Below, one piece after another: positions 1 to 21,313 of a stretch of DNA of 47,380 nt; position 1 is the first letter of the stretch; each line of letters opens with the position of its first letter. The stretch comes from Anaerolineae bacterium. Lineage in GTDB: Bacteria > Chloroflexota > Anaerolineae > Aggregatilineales > JAFGMM01. A model generated the notes under the pieces. It was given only the letters and a program-made list of their open reading frames with translations. It was not told where the DNA came from and made no database searches. The position numbers and the translations under genes were made by a program. Where the stretch lies: assembly GCA_016927535.1 (NCBI GenBank), contig JAFGMM010000417.1, positions 1 through 47,380 on the forward strand, read 5' to 3'.

Positions 1-1766
<1,766 letters not shown>

Positions 1767-1950
1767 TGGTTTTACATTCTCCTTTTATTGTGATTATTGT
1801 GCCCGGCTTAATGTGGCATCAATTATGCATTCATACCCAAGCAAACGCTTGATAGTTTAACACATTTGACGAGTTTGGCACAGCAAAATTACGCCACGCT
1901 AAAGAAGCGAAACCGGCGTTAAAGTTTTATAATAATAGTTTGACTAATTT

Positions 1951-1978
1951 TTGATAAGTCCGGCATTTCCGGTAATAT
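1951..1978 (+). promoter_or_regulatory. Candidate promoter for the MscS-type channel gene
   Basis: TTGATA (1951-1956) and TAATAT (1973-1978) are separated by 16 bases in an AT-rich gap, a reasonable housekeeping-sigma match. The spacer holds the small palindrome CCGGCATTTCCGG (1960-1972), which could be an operator; that is speculation. The purine-rich AGGGAGGGG at 1981-1989 sits 13 bases before the ATG, a rather long spacing. Confidence 0.45.
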
Positions 1979-2002
1979 CAAGGGAGGGGACTCTGCTTTG
2001 CG

Positions 2003-3088
2003 ATGATCGATTCATTCAATAACCTGCTCGTTCAACTCGGACTCCGCATCTTGCCTGCCCTGCTGATTCTGCTGCTGACCTGGCTGGTCGGCCGGCTGGA
2101 TACGCACATCTTGCGTCTTCTGCTCCGGCTCATCGACCGTGGGGTCGATTTCGTGCGCAAAACCGACGTTGACCTGGACCGGCAGCTAGAGACGGCATTC
2201 GCCCGCCCGCTGCAATTGTTGATCGTAACGATGGGCGCTTGGCTGGCGCTGTTGGCCCTCGACCTGCCTGAAATCTTCCGCAAGATTATCAACCCGGCGG
2301 GGAGTTCGTTTGTCCTGGCTTCGGTTTTCTGGGCCATCTACCGTTTGGTGGGTGTGGTGATTTATTATATAAATAAACAAAAAGATAACTATGCTGTTCT
2401 CGATGACGTAACGCTTCACTTCGGGAGGCAGCTTGTCCGGGCCGGGGTATTGATCCTGGCTTTCTTCAGCATTGCGCGCGAATGGGGCTATGACCTGGGA
2501 GCGATGCTCGCCGGGCTGGGGTTGGGCGGCCTGGCGGTTGCGCTGGCCGCGCAAGACGCCATCGCCAACCTGATCGGCTACTTTGCCATCATGATCGACC
2601 TGCCCTTTGCGGTCGGCGAGTTTATCGACACCGGCGCCGTGAAAGGTACGGTGGAGAAGATCGGTTTTCGCAGCACCAAGATTCGCCAGCTCGACCAGTC
2701 GCTTGCAATCGTGCCCAACAAGGAGATCACGGCGACTACCATCACCAATTGGTCGCGGCTGAAGAAGCGCCGGCTGAATCTAACGCTGAGCCTATCGCGC
2801 GCCGCTTCGCCCGCCCAGATTCTCGCCGTGGTGGAGGATGTCCGCAGCCTGGCCGTCAATCACGACTTAATTATCGAAGATTCGGTCACGGTGAAATTCA
2901 GCGGGTTCGGCGAAAGCTCGCTGGATATTCTGGTGATTGCCATGCTAGACACACCCGACTGGGGCGAATTCATGGCGGCGCAGGAAGAAATCCAACTGCG
3001 CATTATAGACATCCTGGCTGCGCACGGGGTCAGTCTCGCCGTGGGACAGGCCATCCTGGTCAGCCAGCAAGACCACTTCGTAAGATAA
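2003..3088 (+). CDS. MscS-family small-conductance mechanosensitive channel
   Basis: A 361-residue inner-membrane channel of the MscS family, expected to open under membrane tension and release solutes during hypo-osmotic shock. There are hydrophobic segments at about residues 10-30, 70-90, 100-125 and 145-165. The pore-lining helix and start of the beta domain are recognisable in GAMLAGLGLGGLAVALAAQD and the following IANLIGYFAIMIDLPFAVGEFI, matching the Gly/Ala-rich TM3 and the vGD-type turn of the family. The beta domain continues with GTVEKIGFRSTKIRQLDQ and VPNKEI. The C-terminal alpha/beta vestibule follows. Length is normal for a short MscS. It stands alone between divergent ppdK and convergent 3097-4689, with only 8 bases to the latter's stop and no obvious terminator. 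Confidence 0.93.
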   Translation: MIDSFNNLLVQLGLRILPALLILLLTWLVGRLDTHILRLLLRLIDRGVDFVRKTDVDLDRQLETAFARPLQLLIVTMGAWLALLALDLPEIFRKIINPAGSSFVLASVFWAIYRLVGVVIYYINKQKDNYAVLDDVTLHFGRQLVRAGVLILAFFSIAREWGYDLGAMLAGLGLGGLAVALAAQDAIANLIGYFAIMIDLPFAVGEFIDTGAVKGTVEKIGFRSTKIRQLDQSLAIVPNKEITATTITNWSRLKKRRLNLTLSLSRAASPAQILAVVEDVRSLAVNHDLIIEDSVTVKFSGFGESSLDILVIAMLDTPDWGEFMAAQEEIQLRIIDILAAHGVSLAVGQAILVSQQDHFVR

Positions 3089-7873: not shown

Positions 7874-7949
7874 CGCGGTAGACTATACCCAGCGTCGGCG
7901 AGCGCAAGAGTCTGCTAGCCGCTAATCGTGAACTCGGAGGCAATTGTCT

Positions 7950-8708
7950 ATGTCAAACTTAGAGGGATCTGTTGCGCTGGTCACCGGGTCCGGGCAGGGG
8001 ATCGGGTGCGCGGTGGTGCAGGCGTTGGTGCTTCAGAAGGCGATTGTCTGCATCAACGACCGCGACCAGGAGCGCGCTCAGGGCACCGTCGATTGGGTGA
8101 ACGAGGTCGGCGGCGAGTGTCTTTCGGTGCCCGCCGACGTCAGCGACTGTGACGCCGTCCAGGAAATGTTTCAAAAAGTGGTGGATGCTTACGGTAAAAT
8201 CGATATCCTGGTCAACAACGCCGGCGTGACCCGTGACAATCTCTTGATGCGGATGAGCGAAGAAGAATGGGACCTGGTGATGGCCGTGAATCTTAAGAGT
8301 GTCTTTAACTGCTGCAAGGCCGCCGTGCGCCATATGATGCGCAAGCGTTACGGGCGCATCGTCAACATGTCGAGCGTCAGCGGCATCGCCGGGCAGGTCG
8401 GCCAGGTCAACTACAGCGCCAGCAAGGCCGGCATCATCGGCTTTACAAAGGCGCTGGCCCGCGAGGTCGCCAGCCGCAACATCACCGTGAACGCGGTCGC
8501 GCCCAGCTTTGTCCAGACGCCGATGACCGACGGGTTGGCCGACAGGGTGGGCGCAGAGGCGATGAAGCAGCTCAACGCGGCCATCCCGATGGGGCGTTGG
8601 GCCACGCCCGAAGAAGTCGCCCACGCCGTCCTATTCTTCTGCACCCCGGAGGTCGGCTATATCACCGGGCAGGTGCTCTCGGTGGACGGTGGTATGGTGA
8701 TGGGGTAA
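7950..8708 (+). CDS. fabG: 3-oxoacyl-[acyl-carrier-protein] reductase (SDR)
   Basis: NADPH-dependent reductase of fatty-acid elongation, 252 residues, a typical FabG length. The nucleotide motif TGSGQGIG is at 12-19 and the NNAG motif at 89-92. The catalytic set is Asn114 (MAVNLKSV), Ser142 (NMSSVSG), and Tyr155 and Lys159 (NYSASKAG). It ends with GYITGQVLSVDGGMVMG. The ATG at 7950 is chosen because GGAGG at 7936-7940 is 9 bases upstream; the TTG at 7944 is too close to it. It is first in a plus-strand operon with asp23-like, nusB, tatA/B and tatC. The class is easily confused with other SDRs, but the DGGMVMG end favours FabG. Confidence 0.9.
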   Translation: MSNLEGSVALVTGSGQGIGCAVVQALVLQKAIVCINDRDQERAQGTVDWVNEVGGECLSVPADVSDCDAVQEMFQKVVDAYGKIDILVNNAGVTRDNLLMRMSEEEWDLVMAVNLKSVFNCCKAAVRHMMRKRYGRIVNMSSVSGIAGQVGQVNYSASKAGIIGFTKALAREVASRNITVNAVAPSFVQTPMTDGLADRVGAEAMKQLNAAIPMGRWATPEEVAHAVLFFCTPEVGYITGQVLSVDGGMVMG

Positions 8709-8717
8709 ACTCCTATT

Positions 8718-9089
8718 ATGATGAGTGAGATACAAGAAGTCACGTCGCTTGAGGATAAGGTCACCATCGCGCCCAGCGTGCTGCTGACGGTCGTCCGCTA
8801 CACCACCCTGAGCGTGGAGGGTGTGGCGCGCATGGGCAATATGCCCGGCGGGGTGGACCGCATTTTCCGGCGCAACCCGGCGGCCAACGGCGTGATGATC
8901 GTGGTGGACGGCGAGGCGCAGACCGTGGTATGCGATCTTTATATCGTCGTCAAGCCGGATGTCAATATGCAGGAAGTAAGTTACAATGTGCAGCAGAAGG
9001 TCACGCGCGCCATCCATGAGATCGTCGGGATGGATGTGTTGGCGATCAACGTGCACATTGAGGACATCGCTTACGACACGCATTCGTGA
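8718..9089 (+). CDS. Asp23/Gls24 family protein
   Basis: A 123-residue cytoplasmic protein of the Asp23/Gls24 (YqhY/AmaP-associated) family. Family features are the start [20 protein letters not shown], the middle segment VARMGNM, and the end [25 protein letters not shown], which is the VxVxGxxxxxVNVxVxgv-type strand of the family. Members are linked to envelope stress and to fatty-acid supply (YqhY in Bacillus affects acetyl-CoA carboxylase). A site directly after fabG and directly before nusB fits that link. The start could be ATG 8718 or 8721. The stop overlaps the GTG of nusB by 4 bases. Confidence 0.88.
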
Positions 9090-9607
9090 CATCACACAAG
9101 GATAGAAAGCCGGGTAAGGCTTACGCGAGGTACGCATCTTTGAAAGCACGACGCAAGGCGCGCCAGATTGCCTTGCAAGCTCTTTACGAAATCGACTGCG
9201 CCGACCATGCCGTGTCGGAGGTGCTCGCGGAGCGTTTGCGGGTAGACCCTGTGCCGGACAGCGTGTTGTCGTTCGTATACCAGATGGTCCAGGGCGTGCT
9301 GAGCAGCAAGGCGCGCATGGATGTCGTCATCCAGGACTATGCGCCCGAATGGCCGTTGGACCAGATGGCAATTATCGACCGTAATATCTTGCGGATTGCC
9401 ATTTATGAATTTGCCGTCAGTGGGATTACCCCGATGAAAGTGGCGATTAACGAGGCGGTCGAGTTGGCGAAGGTCTTTGGCTCGGATAGTGCGCCGCGCT
9501 TTATCAACGGGGTGTTGGGCAGTCTTGCGAACCGGCACCGCGAGATTGTGCAGACGCTCCGGGCCGAAGCCGCCCAGAAGCCGGCCGAATCGACCGATGT
9601 GACATGA
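9086..9607 (+). CDS. nusB: Transcription antitermination factor NusB
   Basis: A 173-residue all-helical RNA-binding protein that acts with NusE/S10 at boxA of rRNA leaders. Motifs are [17 protein letters not shown] near residue 24, then [12 protein letters not shown], and [18 protein letters not shown] followed by [13 protein letters not shown], all standard for NusB. The first 19 residues ([19 protein letters not shown]) are a basic extension beyond the usual start, so TTG at about 9140 is a possible alternative. GTG 9086 overlaps the asp23 stop (GTGA), which supports translational coupling. The asp23-nusB order is also common in Firmicutes. Confidence 0.95.
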
Positions 9608-9632
9608 TGATGGACTGAGCCGGGTTATTAAT

Positions 9633-10148
9633 ATGGATATCTTGGGCGTTGGCGTCCCTGAATTGATTGTGGTCTTCCTGATCATGCTGGTCGTGGCCGG
9701 ACCACGCCGCATGACCCAGTGGGCGTTTCTGGCCGGGCGCGAGCTTCGAAAGCTGCGCGGGATGTGGGCGGAGGCCAAGGGAATGATCCGCCAGGAGCTT
9801 GAGGCGGCAGGTTTTACCGAAGAGGAAATCCAACAGGTTAAGAAGCTGCCGAACGAGTTGACCAACGCTGCCAGGACGGTCACCAACCCGGTTGGCGCGG
9901 CGAGCAAGCAGCTTGGCAAGGAGGTCAAGAAGACGACCGAGGCGACGACTACCGCCGTCGGCGCTGCCGCCGTCGATCTGAAAAAAGCGACTACATCGGC
10001 GCCTGAGCAAGCCAAAGAAGCCGCACCGCCATCTGAACCGGATTCCGGCGGCAAGGAGGCGGACGAATTGCCTCCGCCGGAGGCTCAGGCTTTCAAAACC
10101 GAGGCGCCGCGTGATGCGTCGGATAACGGCGCAAAGCCGGGCGCGTGA
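9633..10148 (+). CDS. Sec-independent translocase protein TatA/TatB
   Basis: A 171-residue Tat component. The N-terminal 20 residues, MDILGVGVPELIVVFLIMLV, are the single membrane helix with the GVPEL-type elbow; an amphipathic helix with PRRMTQWAFLAGRELRKLR follows. The remaining about 110 residues are an acidic/basic, Ala-Thr-Pro-rich tail without clear folds. The long tail and conserved Glu in GVPEL make it more TatB-like, but only one TatA/B gene is present here, so it may serve both roles or a second copy lies elsewhere. It precedes tatC by 32 bases. Antisense frames across it are shadows. Confidence 0.85.
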   Translation: MDILGVGVPELIVVFLIMLVVAGPRRMTQWAFLAGRELRKLRGMWAEAKGMIRQELEAAGFTEEEIQQVKKLPNELTNAARTVTNPVGAASKQLGKEVKKTTEATTTAVGAAAVDLKKATTSAPEQAKEAAPPSEPDSGGKEADELPPPEAQAFKTEAPRDASDNGAKPGA

Positions 10149-10180
10149 CCTGAAGCGCTTTTGATCTGGACCGAGTGTCT

Positions 10181-11071
10181 ATGGCTCTCAAATCGAAAGA
10201 AAAGAAACCCAACCTAATCGAAGAACCCGACTCCGAAAAGGCAGTCACGTACATCGAGGGCGAAGGCCCGGTGATGGGTTTCTTCGAGCACATCGACGAA
10301 CTGCGCAAGCACTTGATGCGCGCCGGCGCGGCGCTCCTGGTCACGACAACGCTGTGTATGTTTTTCACCGGCCAAATTTTGCAGTATCTCATCAGCGCCG
10401 CCCCTGAAACGGAAAGCATGGCGCGCAAACTCCAGATTCTCGGCCCCACCGAGTCGGTGGTCGTATACTTCCGGGTCGCGCTGATGTCCGGCGCGATCCT
10501 GGCGATGCCGATTATCACCTGGCAGGTGTTTGCTTTCGTCCTACCGGGCCTGACTCGAGAAGAGAAGCGCTTTGTGCTGCTTTCGCTGCCGGGCATCATG
10601 GTTTTCTTTCTTATCGGCGTGGCTTTTGCCTGGTTCATTATGACGCCCGCCGCCCTGACCTTTTTGGCCGAGTTCCAGAGCGAAGTCTTTGTCGTCGAGT
10701 GGACGGCAGACCAGTATGTTGCTTTTATCACGGCGCTGCTGTTCTGGATCGGCGTGGCGTTCGAGACGCCGCTGGTGTTCTTCGTGTTGGGGCGCATGGG
10801 GTTTGTCAGGCCGCGCGCGCTGGTGAAGAACTGGCGCTTTGCCGTGGTCGCGGCGGCGATCATTGCGGCGCTCATCACGCCGACCATCGACCCTTTCAAC
10901 ATGGCGCTCGTCATGGGGCCGCTGCTCGGATTATACGTTTTAAGCATTTTCCTGACGGCCATCGCCTACCGCCGGTCGGGGGTGGGCCAGGCCGAGATTG
11001 CTGAGAAGAAAGCGGCGCGCGAGGCCCAGAAACGCGCGAAGCAAGCTAAGAAACACACCAAGCGGTCGTAG
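10181..11071 (+). CDS. tatC: Twin-arginine translocase subunit TatC
   Basis: A 296-residue polytopic protein that recognises twin-arginine signal peptides. Six hydrophobic segments are visible. Family motifs are FFEHIDELRKHLMRA at the start, TESVVVYFRVALMSG, QVFAFVLPGLTREEKRFV, and FETPLVFFVLGRMGFV; conserved Phe/Glu positions of the first cytoplasmic loop and the Pro in LPGL are present. About 45 residues of charged tail precede the first helix and a lysine-rich tail (KRAKQAKKHTKRS) ends the protein. ATG 10181 is preferred; GTG 10175 in the same frame is an alternative. It is the last gene of the fabG operon. Confidence 0.96.
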   Translation: MALKSKEKKPNLIEEPDSEKAVTYIEGEGPVMGFFEHIDELRKHLMRAGAALLVTTTLCMFFTGQILQYLISAAPETESMARKLQILGPTESVVVYFRVALMSGAILAMPIITWQVFAFVLPGLTREEKRFVLLSLPGIMVFFLIGVAFAWFIMTPAALTFLAEFQSEVFVVEWTADQYVAFITALLFWIGVAFETPLVFFVLGRMGFVRPRALVKNWRFAVVAAAIIAALITPTIDPFNMALVMGPLLGLYVLSIFLTAIAYRRSGVGQAEIAEKKAAREAQKRAKQAKKHTKRS

Positions 11072-11106
11072 ACGCAATTTCCCGCCGTCACACCAATTAT
11101 AGTCAT

Positions 11107-11143
11107 CCCTCAGCGTAGCCTTTGATGCGTTGGGGGATTTTCT
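11107..11143 (+). terminator. Rho-independent terminator of the fabG-tatC operon
   Basis: An 11-bp stem of CCCTCAGCGTA (11107-11117) and TGCGTTGGGGG (11126-11136) with three wobble pairs and an 8-base loop, followed directly by ATTTTCTT. It lies 36 bases after the tatC stop. Confidence 0.7.
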
Positions 11144-11243
11144 TGCCAGGGAGCCGTTTTGCTCCAGGGCGTTTTGGTGTTGTGTACCGCGCGCCCCAGA
11201 GCAAAATCTCAAACGTATACGCTGATATAAGGAGAGGATCGAA

Positions 11244-12581
11244 ATGAGCAGGAAACGTGTCATCATCATGGGGGCCGCCGGGCGCGACTTCCACAACTTC
11301 AATACGTACTACCGCGATAACGAAGCTTACGAAGTCGTCGCCTTCACCGCTACCCAAATCCCCGATATCGCGGGGCGCAGGTATCCCCTCGAACTGGCCG
11401 GCGGCCTCTATCCGGCCGGCATTCCGATCTATGCCGAGGCCGAGCTTAACCGGTTGATCGTCGAGCACGATGTCGATGAGGTGGTCTTTGCCTACTCGGA
11501 CGTGTCGCACGAATACGTCATGCACAAGGCCAGCCAGGTCATCGCCGCCGGCGCCGACTTCCGGCTGATGGGGCCGAAGCGCACCCAGGTTCGCGCCGAA
11601 AAGCCGGTCGTGAGCATCGGCGCGGTGCGCACCGGCTGCGGCAAGAGCCAAACCACCCGCCGCGTCAGCGATGTGCTGCGCGCGATGGGCTATAAGGTCG
11701 TCGTGGTCCGGCACCCCATGCCCTACAGCGCCGATCTGGCCGCCAACGCGGTCCAGCGCTTCGCCGATTACGACGATATCGACGAGAAGTACAAGGTCAC
11801 CATCGAGGAAAAAGAAGAGTACGAGCCGCATCTCGACCGGGGCGTGGTGGTCTATGCCGGCGTCGATTACGAAGCCATCCTGGAGCAGGCGCAGCAGGAA
11901 GCCGATATCGTCCTCTGGGACGGCGGCAACAACGACCTGCCCTTCTACCAAAGCGACCTGCACATTGTTGTCGCCGACCCGCACCGCCCCGGCCACGAGT
12001 TGACTTACCATCCCGGCGAGGCGAACCTGCGTATGGCCGATGTGGTGGTCATCAATAAGATCGACACCGCCGACCACGCGAACATTGCCGCCGTGCGCCA
12101 GAACGTCATTGCCTGCAACCCGGAGGCGCAGATCGTCGAGGCTGCCTCGCCCATCTCGGTCGAGAACCCCGACGCCATCTGGGGTAAGCGCGTCCTGGTC
12201 ATCGAGGATGGTCCCACCCTCACCCACGGCGAGATGGCTTATGGCGCCGGCATCGTAGCCGCCCAGCGCTTTGGTGCCGCCGAGATCGTCGATCCGCGCC
12301 CTTACGCCATCGGCAGCATTCTCGAAACGTACAAGAAGTACCCGAACACCGGCCCGGTGCTCCCGGCGATGGGCTACAGTGATAAGCAGCGCGCCGAACT
12401 GGAACAAACCATCAACAATACGCCCGTCGATTTGGTCATCGTCGCTACGCCCATTGACCTGACCCATGTTATTACACTCAAGAAGCCTTACGAGCGTGTG
12501 CGCTACGAGCTTCAAGAGATTGGCAAACCCACGCTGGCCGACATTTTGGAGAAAAGATTCGGCTCGCGTAAGATAGAGTAG
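11244..12581 (+). CDS. Cyclic 2,3-diphosphoglycerate synthetase-like P-loop protein
   Basis: A 445-residue protein with an N-terminal Rossmann-like part (RVIIMGAAGRDFHNFN at 5-20) and a central P-loop domain: Walker A GAVRTGCGKS at 126-135, KIDTAD-type NKID at 271-274, and acidic strand VLWDGGNND near 223-231. This layout and length match archaeal cyclic 2,3-diphosphoglycerate synthetase, which closes 2,3-bisphosphoglycerate into its cyclic anhydride using ATP. Bacterial homologues are often annotated only as GTPases, and their substrate is largely untested. AAGGAGAGG 6 bases before the ATG gives a confident start. It follows the tat terminator and precedes the phosphofructokinase homologue by 55 bases, so the pair may act on glycolytic phosphate intermediates; that is inference. 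Confidence 0.82.
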   Translation: MSRKRVIIMGAAGRDFHNFNTYYRDNEAYEVVAFTATQIPDIAGRRYPLELAGGLYPAGIPIYAEAELNRLIVEHDVDEVVFAYSDVSHEYVMHKASQVIAAGADFRLMGPKRTQVRAEKPVVSIGAVRTGCGKSQTTRRVSDVLRAMGYKVVVVRHPMPYSADLAANAVQRFADYDDIDEKYKVTIEEKEEYEPHLDRGVVVYAGVDYEAILEQAQQEADIVLWDGGNNDLPFYQSDLHIVVADPHRPGHELTYHPGEANLRMADVVVINKIDTADHANIAAVRQNVIACNPEAQIVEAASPISVENPDAIWGKRVLVIEDGPTLTHGEMAYGAGIVAAQRFGAAEIVDPRPYAIGSILETYKKYPNTGPVLPAMGYSDKQRAELEQTINNTPVDLVIVATPIDLTHVITLKKPYERVRYELQEIGKPTLADILEKRFGSRKIE

Positions 12582-12590
12582 AAGTTCTGC

Positions 12591-12622
12591 CTCGTCCCGC
12601 TGCGCCGGCGCGGCGGGATGAG
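12591..12622. repeat. Hairpin between cDPGS-like and PFK-like genes
   Basis: CTCGTCCCGC (12591-12600) pairs with GCGGGATGAG (12613-12622), one wobble, around a GC-rich loop. No T-run follows, so it is not a classical terminator. The core resembles the hairpins at 36286 and 44655 and may belong to one small REP-like family. Confidence 0.55.
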
Positions 12623-12636
12623 AGGGAAGGCTAGCC

Positions 12637-13800
12637 ATGAGTCGGCGCGGTTTACTGGTCGGGCAGGCCGGCGGATCGACCACAGTCGTTAATGCTTGTT
12701 TGGCCGGCGTGATTATCGAAGCTCAGCAGCAGGCCGGCATCACGCATATCTACGGCATGCAAAACGGCATCTTCGGCGCGTTGCACGAACGCCTGGTCGA
12801 TCTTACGCATGTCAGCCGGGAGCGCCTGGACTTGGTGGCGCAGACGCCTGCCTCGACGCTCGGTGCGTCCCGGCGCGCGCTGGACGAGCAAGAGGGCGCG
12901 CGTCTCATAGCCGTGCTGAAGGCGCACGATATTCGCATGCTGGTCTACATGGGCGGGCGCGAAGCGATGCAGACCTGCTGCCGGGTTGAGCGTGCGGCGC
13001 GCGAACATGCCTACGACCTCGCGGTGGTCGGCGTGCCCAAGACCGCCGCTAACGATCTGCCGTGCACCGATCACACGCCCGGCTATGGCAGCGCAGCGCG
13101 CACGCTGGCGCTGGCGGTCCGCGATGCGGCGCGCGACCTGGAGGCGATGAGCAGCGTCGCGGACGTGGTGCTCTTCGAGGTGATGGGCCGCGAGAGCGGC
13201 TGGCTCGCCGCCGCGACGACGCTTGGGCGCGCCAACCCCGACGAAGCGCCGCACTTGCTCTACCTGCCGGAGCTGCCTTTCGACGGCGATGCTTTTCTCG
13301 GCGATGTGCAGCGCCAGTACGACGAGCGCGGCTATGTGCTGGCCGCCGTCTCTGAAGGGGTGTACATGCCGGGCAGTGTGCCGGGCGAGCCGGTCACGGC
13401 TTACCTGGCCGGCCGGGTCCGCGACGCGCTGGGGCTGCGGGCGCGCGAGATTCGCATGGACGCCTTACAGCGCTCGAATACGCTGGGCGTCTCGACCACC
13501 GATTTAGTCGAGGCGACGCTGGTCGGGCGCGAGGCGGTGCGCCAGGCGGTGCGCGGCGCCGGCGGCCAGATGGTGACGCTGGTCCGGGTGCCGGCGCCGA
13601 CTTATCGCTGCACGACCGGCGCCGCGCCGTTGGACCAGATCGCCGGCGCGGTGCGCACCCTGCCCGCCGAGTTCATCGCGCCTGGCGGCGATGTGAGCGC
13701 TGCTTTTCGGGCGTATGCCGAACCCCTGTTAGGCGACCCGCTCCCGCCGCATGGCCGGCTGGGCGGCAAGCCGATTTCGCCGCGTTTGCCTGTGTACTGA
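12637..13800 (+). CDS. Phosphofructokinase-family protein, PPi-type clade, catalytic residues replaced
   Basis: A 387-residue protein with the PFK fold: QAGGSTTVVNACLAGV (10-25), DHTPGYGSAAR (145-155), EVMGRESGWLAA (181-192) and LLYLPELPFD. PFK uses ATP or PPi to phosphorylate fructose 6-phosphate. Two active-site motifs are changed. The GGDGS/GGNDS phosphate-metal loop reads GGREA (106-110). The catalytic TIDND reads TAAND (136-140), so the residue equal to E. coli Asp127, the base, is Ala; Asp129 is kept. Substrate-side residues (MGR) are kept. It may be a pseudoenzyme, a sugar-phosphate sensor or an enzyme of new specificity. RBS-like GAGGGAAGG lies 6-14 bases upstream. A separate true PFK should exist elsewhere. 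Confidence 0.9.
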   Translation: MSRRGLLVGQAGGSTTVVNACLAGVIIEAQQQAGITHIYGMQNGIFGALHERLVDLTHVSRERLDLVAQTPASTLGASRRALDEQEGARLIAVLKAHDIRMLVYMGGREAMQTCCRVERAAREHAYDLAVVGVPKTAANDLPCTDHTPGYGSAARTLALAVRDAARDLEAMSSVADVVLFEVMGRESGWLAAATTLGRANPDEAPHLLYLPELPFDGDAFLGDVQRQYDERGYVLAAVSEGVYMPGSVPGEPVTAYLAGRVRDALGLRAREIRMDALQRSNTLGVSTTDLVEATLVGREAVRQAVRGAGGQMVTLVRVPAPTYRCTTGAAPLDQIAGAVRTLPAEFIAPGGDVSAAFRAYAEPLLGDPLPPHGRLGGKPISPRLPVY

Positions 13801-13814
13801 TCGGAGAAAACCTC

Positions 13815-14549
13815 ATGACGAAAGACAACCGTAAGCTCGTTTTGCTCGCCGTGCTGATTGCCGCCGCCGCGCTGGTTATCTACTACATACGGAAGTTGGT
13901 CGCGTTCTTGCATACGGTACCTACGGGCAGGATCAACGAAACTGTGTCCGCCGTCAACGACGGGTTTGTCAACATGTTCGTTTATACCGACGGCAAAGAC
14001 ACGATTGCCATTGACGCCGTTATGAACGCCGACAAGCTGGCGGGCGCGCTGGGCGAACTCGGCATCGACCCGGCGTCGGTGACGCACCTGTTCATCACGC
14101 ACGGCGACACCGATCACGTCGGCGGGGTGAATGTCTTCACAGACGCGGCGATTTACCTGCCGCGCGCCGAAGAGTGGATGTTCGAAGGCACGAAGGCGCG
14201 CTTTTCGGGCGTTACTGCGTCGCTTCACCTGCCGCGCCCTCACACTCCCCTCGACGACGGCGATGTCGTCACCGTGGGCGATATCACGGTTAAGGCCATC
14301 GCCACGCCCGGCCACACACCGGGCCACACGGCCTACCTCGTCAACGGCGACACGCTCTTTACCGGCGATACCCTCAGCCTGCGCGATGGGTGCGCGACCG
14401 TATTCCCCCGGATCATCAGCATGGACAGCGCTACCCAGTGCGAATCGATTCGCAAGCTGGCAGAGCTTGAGGGCGTCAAGTTAGTGTGCACGGCGCACAC
14501 CGGCTGCACCGAGGACTTTGCTGCCGCGATGCAGGGCTGGAAAGCCTAG
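13815..14549 (+). CDS. Membrane-anchored MBL-fold metallo-hydrolase
   Basis: A 244-residue protein with an N-terminal membrane helix (residues 7-32, KLVLLAVLIAAAALVIYY) followed by a metallo-beta-lactamase fold. Metal motifs are THGDTDHVGG, TPGHTPGH, FTGDTL and TAHTG. The first motif is HxDxDH instead of HxHxDH, a variant seen in other MBL branches; it replaces one zinc ligand. Substrate is unknown; glyoxalase II-like hydrolase is possible from fold alone. GGAGAAAACCTC precedes the ATG. The next gene starts 5 bases after the stop, so it is probably co-transcribed with the YfhO-like protein and the PFK-like gene 14 bases upstream. Confidence 0.85.
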   Translation: MTKDNRKLVLLAVLIAAAALVIYYIRKLVAFLHTVPTGRINETVSAVNDGFVNMFVYTDGKDTIAIDAVMNADKLAGALGELGIDPASVTHLFITHGDTDHVGGVNVFTDAAIYLPRAEEWMFEGTKARFSGVTASLHLPRPHTPLDDGDVVTVGDITVKAIATPGHTPGHTAYLVNGDTLFTGDTLSLRDGCATVFPRIISMDSATQCESIRKLAELEGVKLVCTAHTGCTEDFAAAMQGWKA

Positions 14550-17627: not shown

Positions 17628-19418
17628 ATGCGAAAGCTCACGTTGGGGTTTTTACTCGTTGTTCTGCTGGTGGGCGCGCTGCCGGCATTTGCCGCCGTGC
17701 CCGGTGAAAACCTGACCGCGCTGGCGCGCTATTACCCGGAGAATACGGTTGTGTTCGCCGCGCTCCGCACCGACGCCGGCTTTGTCGAAACTCTCGACGG
17801 CGTGCTGGAGAAAATCGGCGCGGCTTTCCCCGAGGCCGGCATCTCGGCGGCGCCGCTTGGTGCTATGCTCGATGAGACCGCCCAGCGTATGGGCGGCGAA
17901 GACTTCGAGACGGTTTTCCGTGCCTGGATGGGTGACGCCGCCGCGCTGGGCATCACCGATTTTGGTGAATACGGCGAGCCGGCCGGCATCTTCGGGTTCG
18001 CGGTCGCCGACCGCGCCGCCGCCGAGGCCTTCGTCGATGCGCAGTTCACCCAACCGGATGGCGATGATTACGAGAAGCAGGTGACCTCTGATTACACCCT
18101 TTGGGAGGCGCAGAAAGAATGGCTGTCCGACATTGTGCTAGATGATGATGCGCTGCTGTTCTTCGCCGGCTTTGAGACGCTCCCGCTTGAAGGCTACAAG
18201 ACCGCCCTCGCCGACGCGGTGGACTTCCACGCTATGCTCACGCTGCTGCCCGACCGCGAGAACGATTACAGCGTCATTGGCTACTTCAACCCGGCCCCGC
18301 TCATGGCGATGATGGAGAAGAACACCGAGATGCCGCAGCTTTTCCTTGAACTGGCGAAGGCGCGCGGCCCCTATATGGTGGGTATGGCGGTCCGCGACGG
18401 GCGCGCGTTGGTGATGGATGTCGCCGGCGCGTGGGGCGATACGGCCAAACTGGAGGAGGCCGGCTTTGCGCTGGCAATGGATATCCAGCCCGCCGACCTG
18501 GGATTCGCCAGCTACGTCCCTGCCGATGCCCCGTTGGTGGCGCAGACCATCAATCCCGGCGGCCAGGCGCAGATGATCTTTGATAACATCCGCGCGATTG
18601 ATGCCTGGATGAAAGCGGAGGGTCTTTCGTTTGCGCCGGAGGACAGAAGCGACCCGGAGACCGAACGCATACTCTCCGGCCTGGAATTGGGCGACCTGCT
18701 CGCCTTTGCCAACCTGATGCTCAAGGGAATGACCGGCCTCGAGTACGAGAAGGATATCTTGCCGGTCATGGACGGTAACATGGCTGCCTACCTGCGCTTT
18801 ACCGGCAACATGGCGCTGGCGAAGAAGCTGGCCGGCCAGGGCATTTACTACCTGCCCGCCGAGATGGCCGTCGTCGCCGAGATCAACGACTCCGAAACCG
18901 CCGAGCGGGTTACCGAGGCCTTCGCCGGCATGTTGGAGCAGAACGGCTTCGAGATCGAGCGCGAGGAAATCGGCGGCGCGAATATGGTCGTGCTGCCGCG
19001 CCTGGCCGCGATGGTCTACCTGATGCTGCCGGGCGAGTACGTAGTGGAGATGCCCGAATTAGACGCGATGTTCGGCTGGAACGGCGAAGTATACGTCGCC
19101 GGCACGCGCAGCGCCGCGACCTTCAGCCTCGCGCCCGGCGAAAGTCTCGCCGATAACCCGGTGTTCCTCGCGGCGCAGGCGTATATGCTGCCCGGCGCGC
19201 AGGATATCCTGTACCTGAACCCGGACGGCTTGACGGCGTTGCCCCCTGCCCTTGAAGCGCTTGCCGCTGCCGAAGCGCCGTCCTACCAGGACGATGTGAA
19301 GGAGGCCGCGGCGATCCTTCGCGGGTTGTTCGACTTGATCGAAAGCGGCTCCATCACTGCCGCCGCCACCGACAACGGCGATACCATCGTCCGCATGGTA
19401 TTGACCCTGGCCGAGTAA
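17628..19418 (+). CDS. Secreted DUF3352 family protein, copy 1
   Basis: A 596-residue exported protein. Residues 1-22 are a signal peptide ending PAFA-AVPG (SPase I type, no lipobox Cys). The mature start LTALARYYPENTVVFAALR is the recognisable DUF3352 beginning (Leu-x-x-hydrophobic, P-x-x-T/A-hydrophobic-x-A). The rest alternates short strands and helices with repeated GFAVADRAAAEAFVDAQ- and LVMDVAGAW-like segments, suggesting two related halves. No catalytic motif is evident and the family has no established function. AAGGAG is 12 bases before the ATG. The next paralogue starts 29 bases after its stop, so the two form a bicistron. A third member is at 36323. Confidence 0.88.
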   Translation: MRKLTLGFLLVVLLVGALPAFAAVPGENLTALARYYPENTVVFAALRTDAGFVETLDGVLEKIGAAFPEAGISAAPLGAMLDETAQRMGGEDFETVFRAWMGDAAALGITDFGEYGEPAGIFGFAVADRAAAEAFVDAQFTQPDGDDYEKQVTSDYTLWEAQKEWLSDIVLDDDALLFFAGFETLPLEGYKTALADAVDFHAMLTLLPDRENDYSVIGYFNPAPLMAMMEKNTEMPQLFLELAKARGPYMVGMAVRDGRALVMDVAGAWGDTAKLEEAGFALAMDIQPADLGFASYVPADAPLVAQTINPGGQAQMIFDNIRAIDAWMKAEGLSFAPEDRSDPETERILSGLELGDLLAFANLMLKGMTGLEYEKDILPVMDGNMAAYLRFTGNMALAKKLAGQGIYYLPAEMAVVAEINDSETAERVTEAFAGMLEQNGFEIEREEIGGANMVVLPRLAAMVYLMLPGEYVVEMPELDAMFGWNGEVYVAGTRSAATFSLAPGESLADNPVFLAAQAYMLPGAQDILYLNPDGLTALPPALEALAAAEAPSYQDDVKEAAAILRGLFDLIESGSITAAATDNGDTIVRMVLTLAE

Positions 19419-19447
19419 TCGATTACGAGGAAGGAGACGAAATTGCT

Positions 19448-21313
19448 ATGAAGAAGTTAATGGTGCTTATTCTGCTTGCCAGCTTGTTGCTCGGTATGCT
19501 GCCTATCGCGTCGGCGGCGGCGCCTGCCGCAGACCTGACCCGGCTCGCAAGTTACTATCCTGAAAAGACCGTGTTGTTTGCCGCTGCCAACGTCAACGAC
19601 ACGTTCGCCGGTGTGGATACCCTCGCGGCGCGCCTCTCTGAGCGCTTCCCGGACTTGGTGCCGCCCGATTTCACGCTGAAGGGTGCGCTTGAAGCGCTGC
19701 TCCGAGAGAACTTCTACACTGCCGGCGACTTCGAGGCGCTGGTCGGCTCCTGGCTGGGCGATACGGTCGCCGTGGGGCTGCCCTCGGTGCAGAGCGCGAT
19801 GTCTGGCGCGCAGAACCTGTTTGGCCCTTTCACCTACGTCGTCGATATCACCAACCGGGGCGCCGCCGAAGCTTTCTTGGGGGGGATACTGTACGCCAGT
19901 GATTATGCGATCCAGCGCACCGAGACTCAGACGACGTACACCGCGCAGGATTGGCAGCGCGACCCCTCCTTCGCCATTTTCGACGAGATGATGATGGTCG
20001 TGCCTAACCCGCGTATGCTCGCGCGCCTGCCCGAAGTCTCGCTCGCCGATGACCCGCTCTTTACCGGCGCGGTCGGCCTGCTGCCCGGCGACGACTACCG
20101 CGCCATCCTTTACCTGGATACCCAGGGCATCATGAAGCCGTTGATGAGTATGATGAACATGACTAACCTGCCCATCGCCGTGTCGATGTCCTCCCAGGGT
20201 ATGAGGATGGCGATGGATGTCACTGGTCCCCAGGTTTTCGGTTTTGCCTTCTTGGATGACCGCACGCTGATGATGGACGTGGTGCAGCAGTACGCCGACC
20301 TGACCTCGATGCAAGAAAGGGGCGTCCAATACCTGTTCGATGTCCCGCCGGTCGATCTCGAATTCGCCGCGCATGTCCCCGGCGATGCGCCGCTGGTCGT
20401 CCAGGGCACCGACTTCGGCCCGACCGTCCAGGCGACTTTCGACAACCTGCGCGCGCTCGGCCCGGTCTACCAGGAGATGTTTTTGCAGCAGTTGGAGGCG
20501 GCGCGGGAATACATGGAGCCGATGCAATACCAGATGACCACCAACGCCATCCGCCGCTATCTTGACTTCGGCCACCTGGTCACGCTGTTCGACGCAGCAT
20601 ACGCCGGTTTGACCGGCCTGAACCTAGAAAAAGACGTGCTGCCGTGGATGACCGGGGATTATGCGGTCTTCGCGCGGCTGCTGCCGTTTAAGAATGCGAC
20701 TTCAGATGGCTATACACTCGACGTGGGCGTCATCAATGAAGCCACCGACGCCGAAGCCATCGCCGGGATGATGGACGGCCTGCAATACGCGCTCGACTCG
20801 TATAACGGAATGTACACCGTAGAGGAGGTCGGCGGCGGCCAGGCGCTGGTGCTGCCTAACATTGTCCCTACCTTTTTCCCCGGCGGCCCATACGAAACGG
20901 CGCTCGAAGTTCCTGAACTGCACCTTATGGTCGGCGCCAACGACGCGGTATTCGGTTGGGGAACGCGCCCCGGCGTCGCTTTCGGCATGGCGCCGGGCGA
21001 AGACAACCTCGCCGGCCTCCCGGCCTTCATCGCGGCGCAGGAATACTTCCTTGAGGACGCGACCGGCGTCGCTTTCCTCAACTCGGACGGCCTGACGACC
21101 CTGGCCGCTCTGTACCTTTCGGTCAATCAAACTTATGTGAACATCTTGGAAGGGGTGAACGCCGCCGAGGCCGCCGCCGAACTTGAAGCGGCCGGCGCGC
21201 GTGACGCCGCCGCAATTCTGAAGATCATCGACCTGATCGATAGCGCCAGCATCAGCGCCGTTTCAAGCGAGGCCAGCATGGTGCAGCGCTTCGTTGTTAC
21301 GCTGTCCGAATAG
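19448..21313 (+). CDS. Secreted DUF3352 family protein, copy 2
   Basis: A 621-residue paralogue of the preceding protein. The signal peptide (residues 1-24, LLLGMLPIASAAAPA) leads into LTRLASYYPEKTVLFAAANV, parallel to copy 1. Shared landmarks include a mid-protein P-A/G-D-APLV motif (HVPGDAPLVVQGTDFG here, YVPADAPLVAQTINPG in copy 1), GLTGLNLEKDVLPWM against GMTGLEYEKDILPVM, and the end SISAV...VVTLSE against SITAA...VLTLAE. The two are clearly homologous along their length but well diverged, so the duplication is old. Extracytoplasmic role unknown. RBS AAGGAGACG is about 10 bases upstream of ATG 19448. Confidence 0.88.
   Translation: MKKLMVLILLASLLLGMLPIASAAAPAADLTRLASYYPEKTVLFAAANVNDTFAGVDTLAARLSERFPDLVPPDFTLKGALEALLRENFYTAGDFEALVGSWLGDTVAVGLPSVQSAMSGAQNLFGPFTYVVDITNRGAAEAFLGGILYASDYAIQRTETQTTYTAQDWQRDPSFAIFDEMMMVVPNPRMLARLPEVSLADDPLFTGAVGLLPGDDYRAILYLDTQGIMKPLMSMMNMTNLPIAVSMSSQGMRMAMDVTGPQVFGFAFLDDRTLMMDVVQQYADLTSMQERGVQYLFDVPPVDLEFAAHVPGDAPLVVQGTDFGPTVQATFDNLRALGPVYQEMFLQQLEAAREYMEPMQYQMTTNAIRRYLDFGHLVTLFDAAYAGLTGLNLEKDVLPWMTGDYAVFARLLPFKNATSDGYTLDVGVINEATDAEAIAGMMDGLQYALDSYNGMYTVEEVGGGQALVLPNIVPTFFPGGPYETALEVPELHLMVGANDAVFGWGTRPGVAFGMAPGEDNLAGLPAFIAAQEYFLEDATGVAFLNSDGLTTLAALYLSVNQTYVNILEGVNAAEAAAELEAAGARDAAAILKIIDLIDSASISAVSSEASMVQRFVVTLSE

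Follow-up and report, generated by a model that had tools for sequence, protein, structure and literature searches.

A divergent PPi-phosphofructokinase homologue lacking the catalytic base: a probable lineage-specific pseudoenzyme in an Anaerolineae genome

The window, meaning the whole analysed stretch of 47,380 nucleotides from an Anaerolineae bacterium (contig JAFGMM010000417.1), carries on its forward strand an open reading frame (ORF) that starts with ATG at position 12637, ends at 13800, encodes 387 amino acids and contains zero internal stops. The profile search matched residues 3-367 of the product to NF010675/PRK14072 (diphosphate--fructose-6-phosphate 1-phosphotransferase) with 370.7 bits, above the curated cut-off of 273 bits, and the PF00365 match scored 147.9 bits. 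The window protein has a single domain, and its score of approximately 46 bits against TIGR02478 is below the cut-off of 708; that profile represents the fused eukaryotic-type phosphofructokinases (PFKs) of approximately 740 amino acids, with two tandem PFK domains and scores above 708 bits. The AlphaFold2 model had a pLDDT of 95.9 and a pTM of 0.93, and its best Foldseek matches were 3k2q and 3hno (TM 0.86-0.88). The GC3 of the gene was 0.83, similar to that of the neighbour genes. The features of the locus are as follows.

11244-12581, forward strand: co-directional GTPase-like gene upstream, with a weak CobW/HypB match, last gene of an SDR-Asp23-NusB-TatA-TatC-GTPase block (profile search, locus comparison)
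12620-12629, forward strand: Shine-Dalgarno-like gagagggaag, 7 bases 5' of the ATG (sequence read directly)
12637-13800, forward strand: gene of a putative PFK-like pseudoenzyme, 387 amino acids, NF010675/PRK14072 PPi-PFK subfamily (ORF translation, profile scores, predicted structure)
12952-12966, forward strand: GGREA, residues 106-110, donor-phosphate/metal loop, with Asn to Arg, Asp to Glu and Ser to Ala relative to the clade's GGNDS (alignments)
13036-13056, forward strand: PKTAAND, residues 134-140, catalytic-base loop, with Lys135 and Asp140 (Ec129) kept (alignments)
13066-13098, forward strand: TDHTPGYGSAA, residues 144-154, conserved segment, kept (alignments)
13183-13191, forward strand: MGR, residues 183-185, fructose 6-phosphate side, kept (alignments)
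13372-13395, forward strand: site of an in-frame deletion, where relatives carry a D-x-[F/L/M]-G-[H/R] loop (alignment)
13815-14549, forward strand: metallo-beta-lactamase-fold hydrolase with an N-terminal hydrophobic stretch, downstream, 14 bases past the PFK-like stop (ORF, profile search)

The two catalytic loops of the window protein, GGREA and PKTAAND, departed from the clade motifs GGN[DG]S/T and PKT[IV]DND. Alignments to 3k2q, 3hno and 3pfk concurred in placing Ala138 (codon GCT, 13048-13050) at the equivalent of Asp127 of the E. coli and G. stearothermophilus enzymes, as the initial annotation had read from the TAAND loop. The further claim of that annotation, that both catalytic Asp motifs were replaced, stood for Asp127 and not for the donor loop. 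Ec103 is Asn, not Asp, in all PRK14072-clade sequences sampled. Their acidic residue comes one position later, at Ec104 (GGNDS), where the clade has Asp, or Gly in some homologues, and the window protein has Glu109, a conservative change. Judged from the alignments, a single catalytic Asp is truly lost, and the clear losses comprise Asp127 to Ala, the Asn103 equivalent to Arg and the Ser105 equivalent to Ala. Among the residues that mark an EC 2.7.1.90 enzyme, the general-base Asp of PKT[IV]DND is absent (Ala138), as is the Ec104 Asp that sets the PPi register in GGDD/GGND (Glu109), and the Lys of the PKTIDxD motif is present (Lys135).

The in-frame deletion removed approximately 12 or more residues. 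At this point the window protein has 27 residues, the shortest among 169 sequences, versus 36-49 in the other complete ones, and the deleted D-x-[F/L/M]-G-[H/R] loop is found throughout its own subclade. When columns at least 95% conserved among 123 close homologues were considered (n = 63), 59 were kept in the window protein; the four altered were N108R, S110A, D138A and G247S, the last of which adjoins a deletion. The other three fall in the two catalytic loops, and the hypergeometric probability of finding at least three of the four in ten loop columns by chance was approximately 0.011, a value that is only suggestive, as the loop set was picked post hoc. Within its own subclade (27 sequences), the protein departs from the 58 invariant columns at N108R, D138A and P274M. 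Because the changes centre on the catalytic loops and both the framework columns and the predicted fold are retained, the pattern suggests that catalysis was lost and the fold kept. The confident AlphaFold model leans on the alignment of intact relatives and would by itself be no proof that the protein is maintained. The gene is apparently not decaying, as the initial annotation had held, given its full ORF, conserved columns, host-like GC3, Shine-Dalgarno-like site and well-predicted fold; the retention of the full length and of the sugar-phosphate side (MGR, TDHTPGYGSAA), noted in the same annotation, was likewise seen.

Homologues were gathered from the relatives of the window, its class, its phylum and a species-genome collection, which gave 169 sequences including the window protein; 10 further order members, from a search that spanned 154 genomes of the order, brought the total to 179. 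The loop types among the 169 were GGNDS/PKTIDND (123), GGNDS/PKTVDND (33), GGNGS (9), GGNDT (3) and the GGREA/PKTAAND of the window protein (1). The Asp at the base position was kept in all 168 other homologues of the alignment and in all 10 extra order members, which are of the GGN-G type, and the Asn108 equivalent was missing only in the window protein among the 179 sequences. No other member of this set (178 sequences) had the R-E-A or A-A substitutions, and scanning the species-genome collection by pattern yielded no relative with the same changes among its loci. A scan of viral contigs found no relatives of the window protein. The possibility raised in the initial annotation, that these substitutions mark out a group of conserved, orthologous pseudo-PFKs, was rejected, as they occur in 1 of 169 sequences and in none of the 10 further order members. 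On this sampling, the loop substitutions appear to be a lineage-specific singleton on one long branch. The branch length was 1.25 versus a median of 0.22, the longest among the clade's own members, and the closest relatives are approximately 48% identical. In the tree, the protein sits in a well-supported neighbourhood of 25 sequences that includes the GGNGS/GGNGT members of the order; its membership of the order's GGNGS clade was neither supported nor rejected (p 0.18). The PRK14072 copy of a family-mate (G001, L005) is 47% identical and located elsewhere in the family-mate genome; it is probably not an orthologue, since the tree and the AU test spoke against orthology, with a borderline p of 0.047.

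The SDR-Asp23-NusB-TatA-TatC-GTPase block is conserved among members of the order and class, and the family-mate proteins across it are mostly 66-79% identical to those of the window (TatA is lower, approximately 54%). In the window it occupies positions 7944-12581, and the same order of the SDR, Asp23, NusB, TatA, TatC and GTPase-like genes was seen in other genomes of the class. The family-mate's block is followed by an ABC-F ATPase (named from reading its translation) and no PFK, so the pairing of the GTPase-like and PFK-like genes is absent there. As both the PFK-like gene and the hydrolase gene lie outside the block in relatives, the gene context yields no function, and an operon-based function was dropped. 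The hydrolase gene may be co-transcribed with the PFK-like gene. The upstream GTPase-like protein presumably resembles cyclic-2,3-diphosphoglycerate-synthetase-like/COG2403 proteins.

The initial annotation had pointed to a second intact PFK as relevant, and the genome holds two, in tandem on contig C188: an ATP-type GGDGS/SIDND enzyme and a GGDDT/TMDND enzyme. They belong to other subfamilies (24-27% identity) and are unlinked to the PFK-like gene in the assembly. An intact PRK14072 paralogue that could serve as a partner was not found in the 89%-complete metagenome-assembled genome. Because of the two intact PFKs, glycolysis should not need the PFK-like gene.

Compared with known systems, the window protein is like the NF010675/PRK14072 PPi-PFKs of Nitrosospira multiformis (3hno) and Marinobacter aquaeolei (3k2q) over 365 residues and in predicted fold, sharing with this subfamily the sugar-phosphate side, the PKT Lys and most invariant framework residues; it is unlike them in the Asp127 to Ala change, the GGREA donor loop and the deleted D-x-[F/L/M]-G-[H/R] loop. 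In eukaryotes, PFK domains without catalytic function are familiar as fused halves or subunits. The window protein resembles the C-terminal regulatory half of eukaryotic ATP-PFKs, the site of fructose 2,6-bisphosphate binding, in that the Asp127 equivalent is lost, the donor loop ends in E-A and the sugar pocket is kept; for yeast PFK beta, alignment of this half puts GGFEA...TLSNN at the GGREA and TAAND sites. Unlike that half, it is a separate bacterial protein of 387 residues, derived from a PPi-PFK and unfused to a catalytic half, and we take the resemblance as a convergent precedent. In eukaryotic PFK, catalysis was lost from the C-terminal half and the fructose 6-phosphate (F6P) pocket turned into a fructose 2,6-bisphosphate effector site (PMC12203962).

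We consider the window protein a real, intact, lineage-specific pseudo-PFK that most likely binds sugar phosphates or has a regulatory function. From the residues present, it is nearly certain that PFK catalysis was lost; as to a sugar-phosphate sensing or signalling role and its ligand, both are what we infer. The best explanation, which we favour with modest confidence, is a protein that performs no phosphoryl transfer, binds fructose phosphates and acts as a sensor or regulatory partner; the suggestion of a pseudoenzyme sensing fructose phosphates, made in the initial annotation, thus fits the lost base and the kept sugar-phosphate side best. In PFK, Asp127 is the general base and deprotonates F6P at its 1-hydroxyl; in PPi-PFKs, the ATP alpha-phosphate site is filled by the Ec104 Asp, and a Borrelia structure places the Lys of PKTIDxD 3.1 A away from the 1-phosphate of fructose 1,6-bisphosphate (FBP) (PMC12203962). 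The protein would have originated as a PRK14072-type PPi-dependent PFK and retained the two-Rossmann fold of PFKs and the pocket for fructose phosphates. Phosphoryl transfer would have been lost when the base that deprotonates the sugar 1-hydroxyl became Ala, the donor-phosphate loop gained an Arg and lost a Ser, and the clade-invariant loop was deleted, so that the old active site may now hold a fructose phosphate without turnover. Because the base is gone, Lys135 kept and Arg108 added, the pocket should bind a sugar bisphosphate and not transfer phosphate; removal of the negative Asp would add to this preference. Occupancy of the pocket might be signalled through the conformation of the oligomer, either by a sensor that stands alone or by a protein that partners and regulates another PFK or a different enzyme. 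More tentatively, and with some doubt, the protein might be a stand-alone bacterial fructose bisphosphate sensor, derived from a PPi-phosphofructokinase by loss of the base and recharging of the donor pocket, which would independently repeat the step that created the eukaryotic fructose 2,6-bisphosphate site.

Should the window protein bind fructose phosphates and not turn them over, a PFK active site would have become a sugar-phosphate effector site a second time, independently, and the protein would provide a simple single-domain system in which to study such a change. No description of a free-standing pseudo-PFK from bacteria emerged from the literature search, to which subscription journals were mostly closed. 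The protein is a singleton from a metagenome-assembled genome, which limits its general importance until a second carrier is known.

Slow decay of a redundant copy is the main rival, which we regard as rather unlikely. It would make the gene a functionless pseudogene in the making, under relaxed selection, with stops and frameshifts yet to come. The variant is a singleton, the gene is missing at the equivalent place in the family-mate, the two other PFKs make it dispensable, and the longest branch among the clade's own members also fits relaxed constraint. With the variant seen in a single genome, conservation cannot demonstrate selection on the inactive form, and dN/dS is not possible because the closest relatives are so distant. 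Against decay stand the 59 of 63 intact columns with changes centred on the catalytic loops, the multiple non-synonymous changes and in-frame loop deletion in an unbroken frame, the host-like GC3 and the very confident predicted fold.

In a narrower version of the favoured non-catalytic sugar-phosphate binding protein, it would join one of the C188 enzymes in a hetero-oligomeric PFK and serve there as the regulatory subunit. Plant PPi-PFK has a regulatory subunit, the loss is of the same type as in the eukaryotic regulatory half, and two intact PFKs are available in the genome; their membership of other subfamilies, their unlinked position and the missing PRK14072 partner make this version improbable.

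Very unlikely, in our assessment, is an enzyme that remains active by a changed chemistry or on a changed substrate, in which Asp140, Glu109 or a group of the substrate serves as the base, or which acts on a different sugar phosphate in a less demanding phosphoryl or hydrolytic reaction. The initial annotation had named another chemistry as its second option, and the analysis brought nothing in its favour beyond compatible features: Glu109 is still an acid at Ec104, Asp140, Lys135 and the sugar side are retained, and some PPi-PFKs also phosphorylate sedoheptulose 7-phosphate (PMC12203962). Opposed to it are the demonstrated role of Asp127 as the general base (PMC12203962) and its retention in 178 of 178 other sequences, the Arg in place of a universally conserved Asn in the donor/metal loop, and the loss of the invariant loop. 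Chance, a base-call or sequencing error and a frameshift were ruled out: two loops differ at several codons, which takes six or more nucleotide changes from the family consensus (two of them for Asn to Arg alone), the separate loop loss is in frame, and the frame is unbroken.

The PRK14072 PFKs of the order (L006, L007, L008, L211-L220) group with L131, which belongs to a different order of the class, in a supported clade with Gly in place of the Ec104 Asp (GGNGS/GGNGT). The members from the order share the subfamily of the window protein and an altered Ec104; unlike it, they keep Asp127 and the invariant loop. Their Gly points to a donor site of the ATP type and not to catalytic death, and suggests that the phosphate donor changed from PPi towards ATP. 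In a separate family, f82 (L144, L145, L146, L161, L163), each genome has two PRK14072 copies, one of the GGNDS type and the other of the GGNGS type, whose N-terminal loop is altered (QSGGSTATLS); this Ec104 Asp to Gly change apparently arose independently, following duplication or transfer. Fused eukaryotic-type PFKs of approximately 740-760 amino acids occur in several same-order genomes (L206, L207, L208, L209, L210), and none above the TIGR02478 cut-off was found in 14 named control genomes. The L206 protein (263-2485, forward strand) scored 1002.6 bits against the cut-off of 708.4, and its best solved match was human platelet PFK (765 bits). In these fused proteins, the first half has intact GGDGS/SIDND loops and the second lacks the Asp127 equivalent (SINNN; SINND in L207). 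Elsewhere in the window, positions 17628-21313 encode two adjoining DUF3352-like proteins of approximately 600 amino acids, of which one passes the Pfam cut-off and the other falls short of it.
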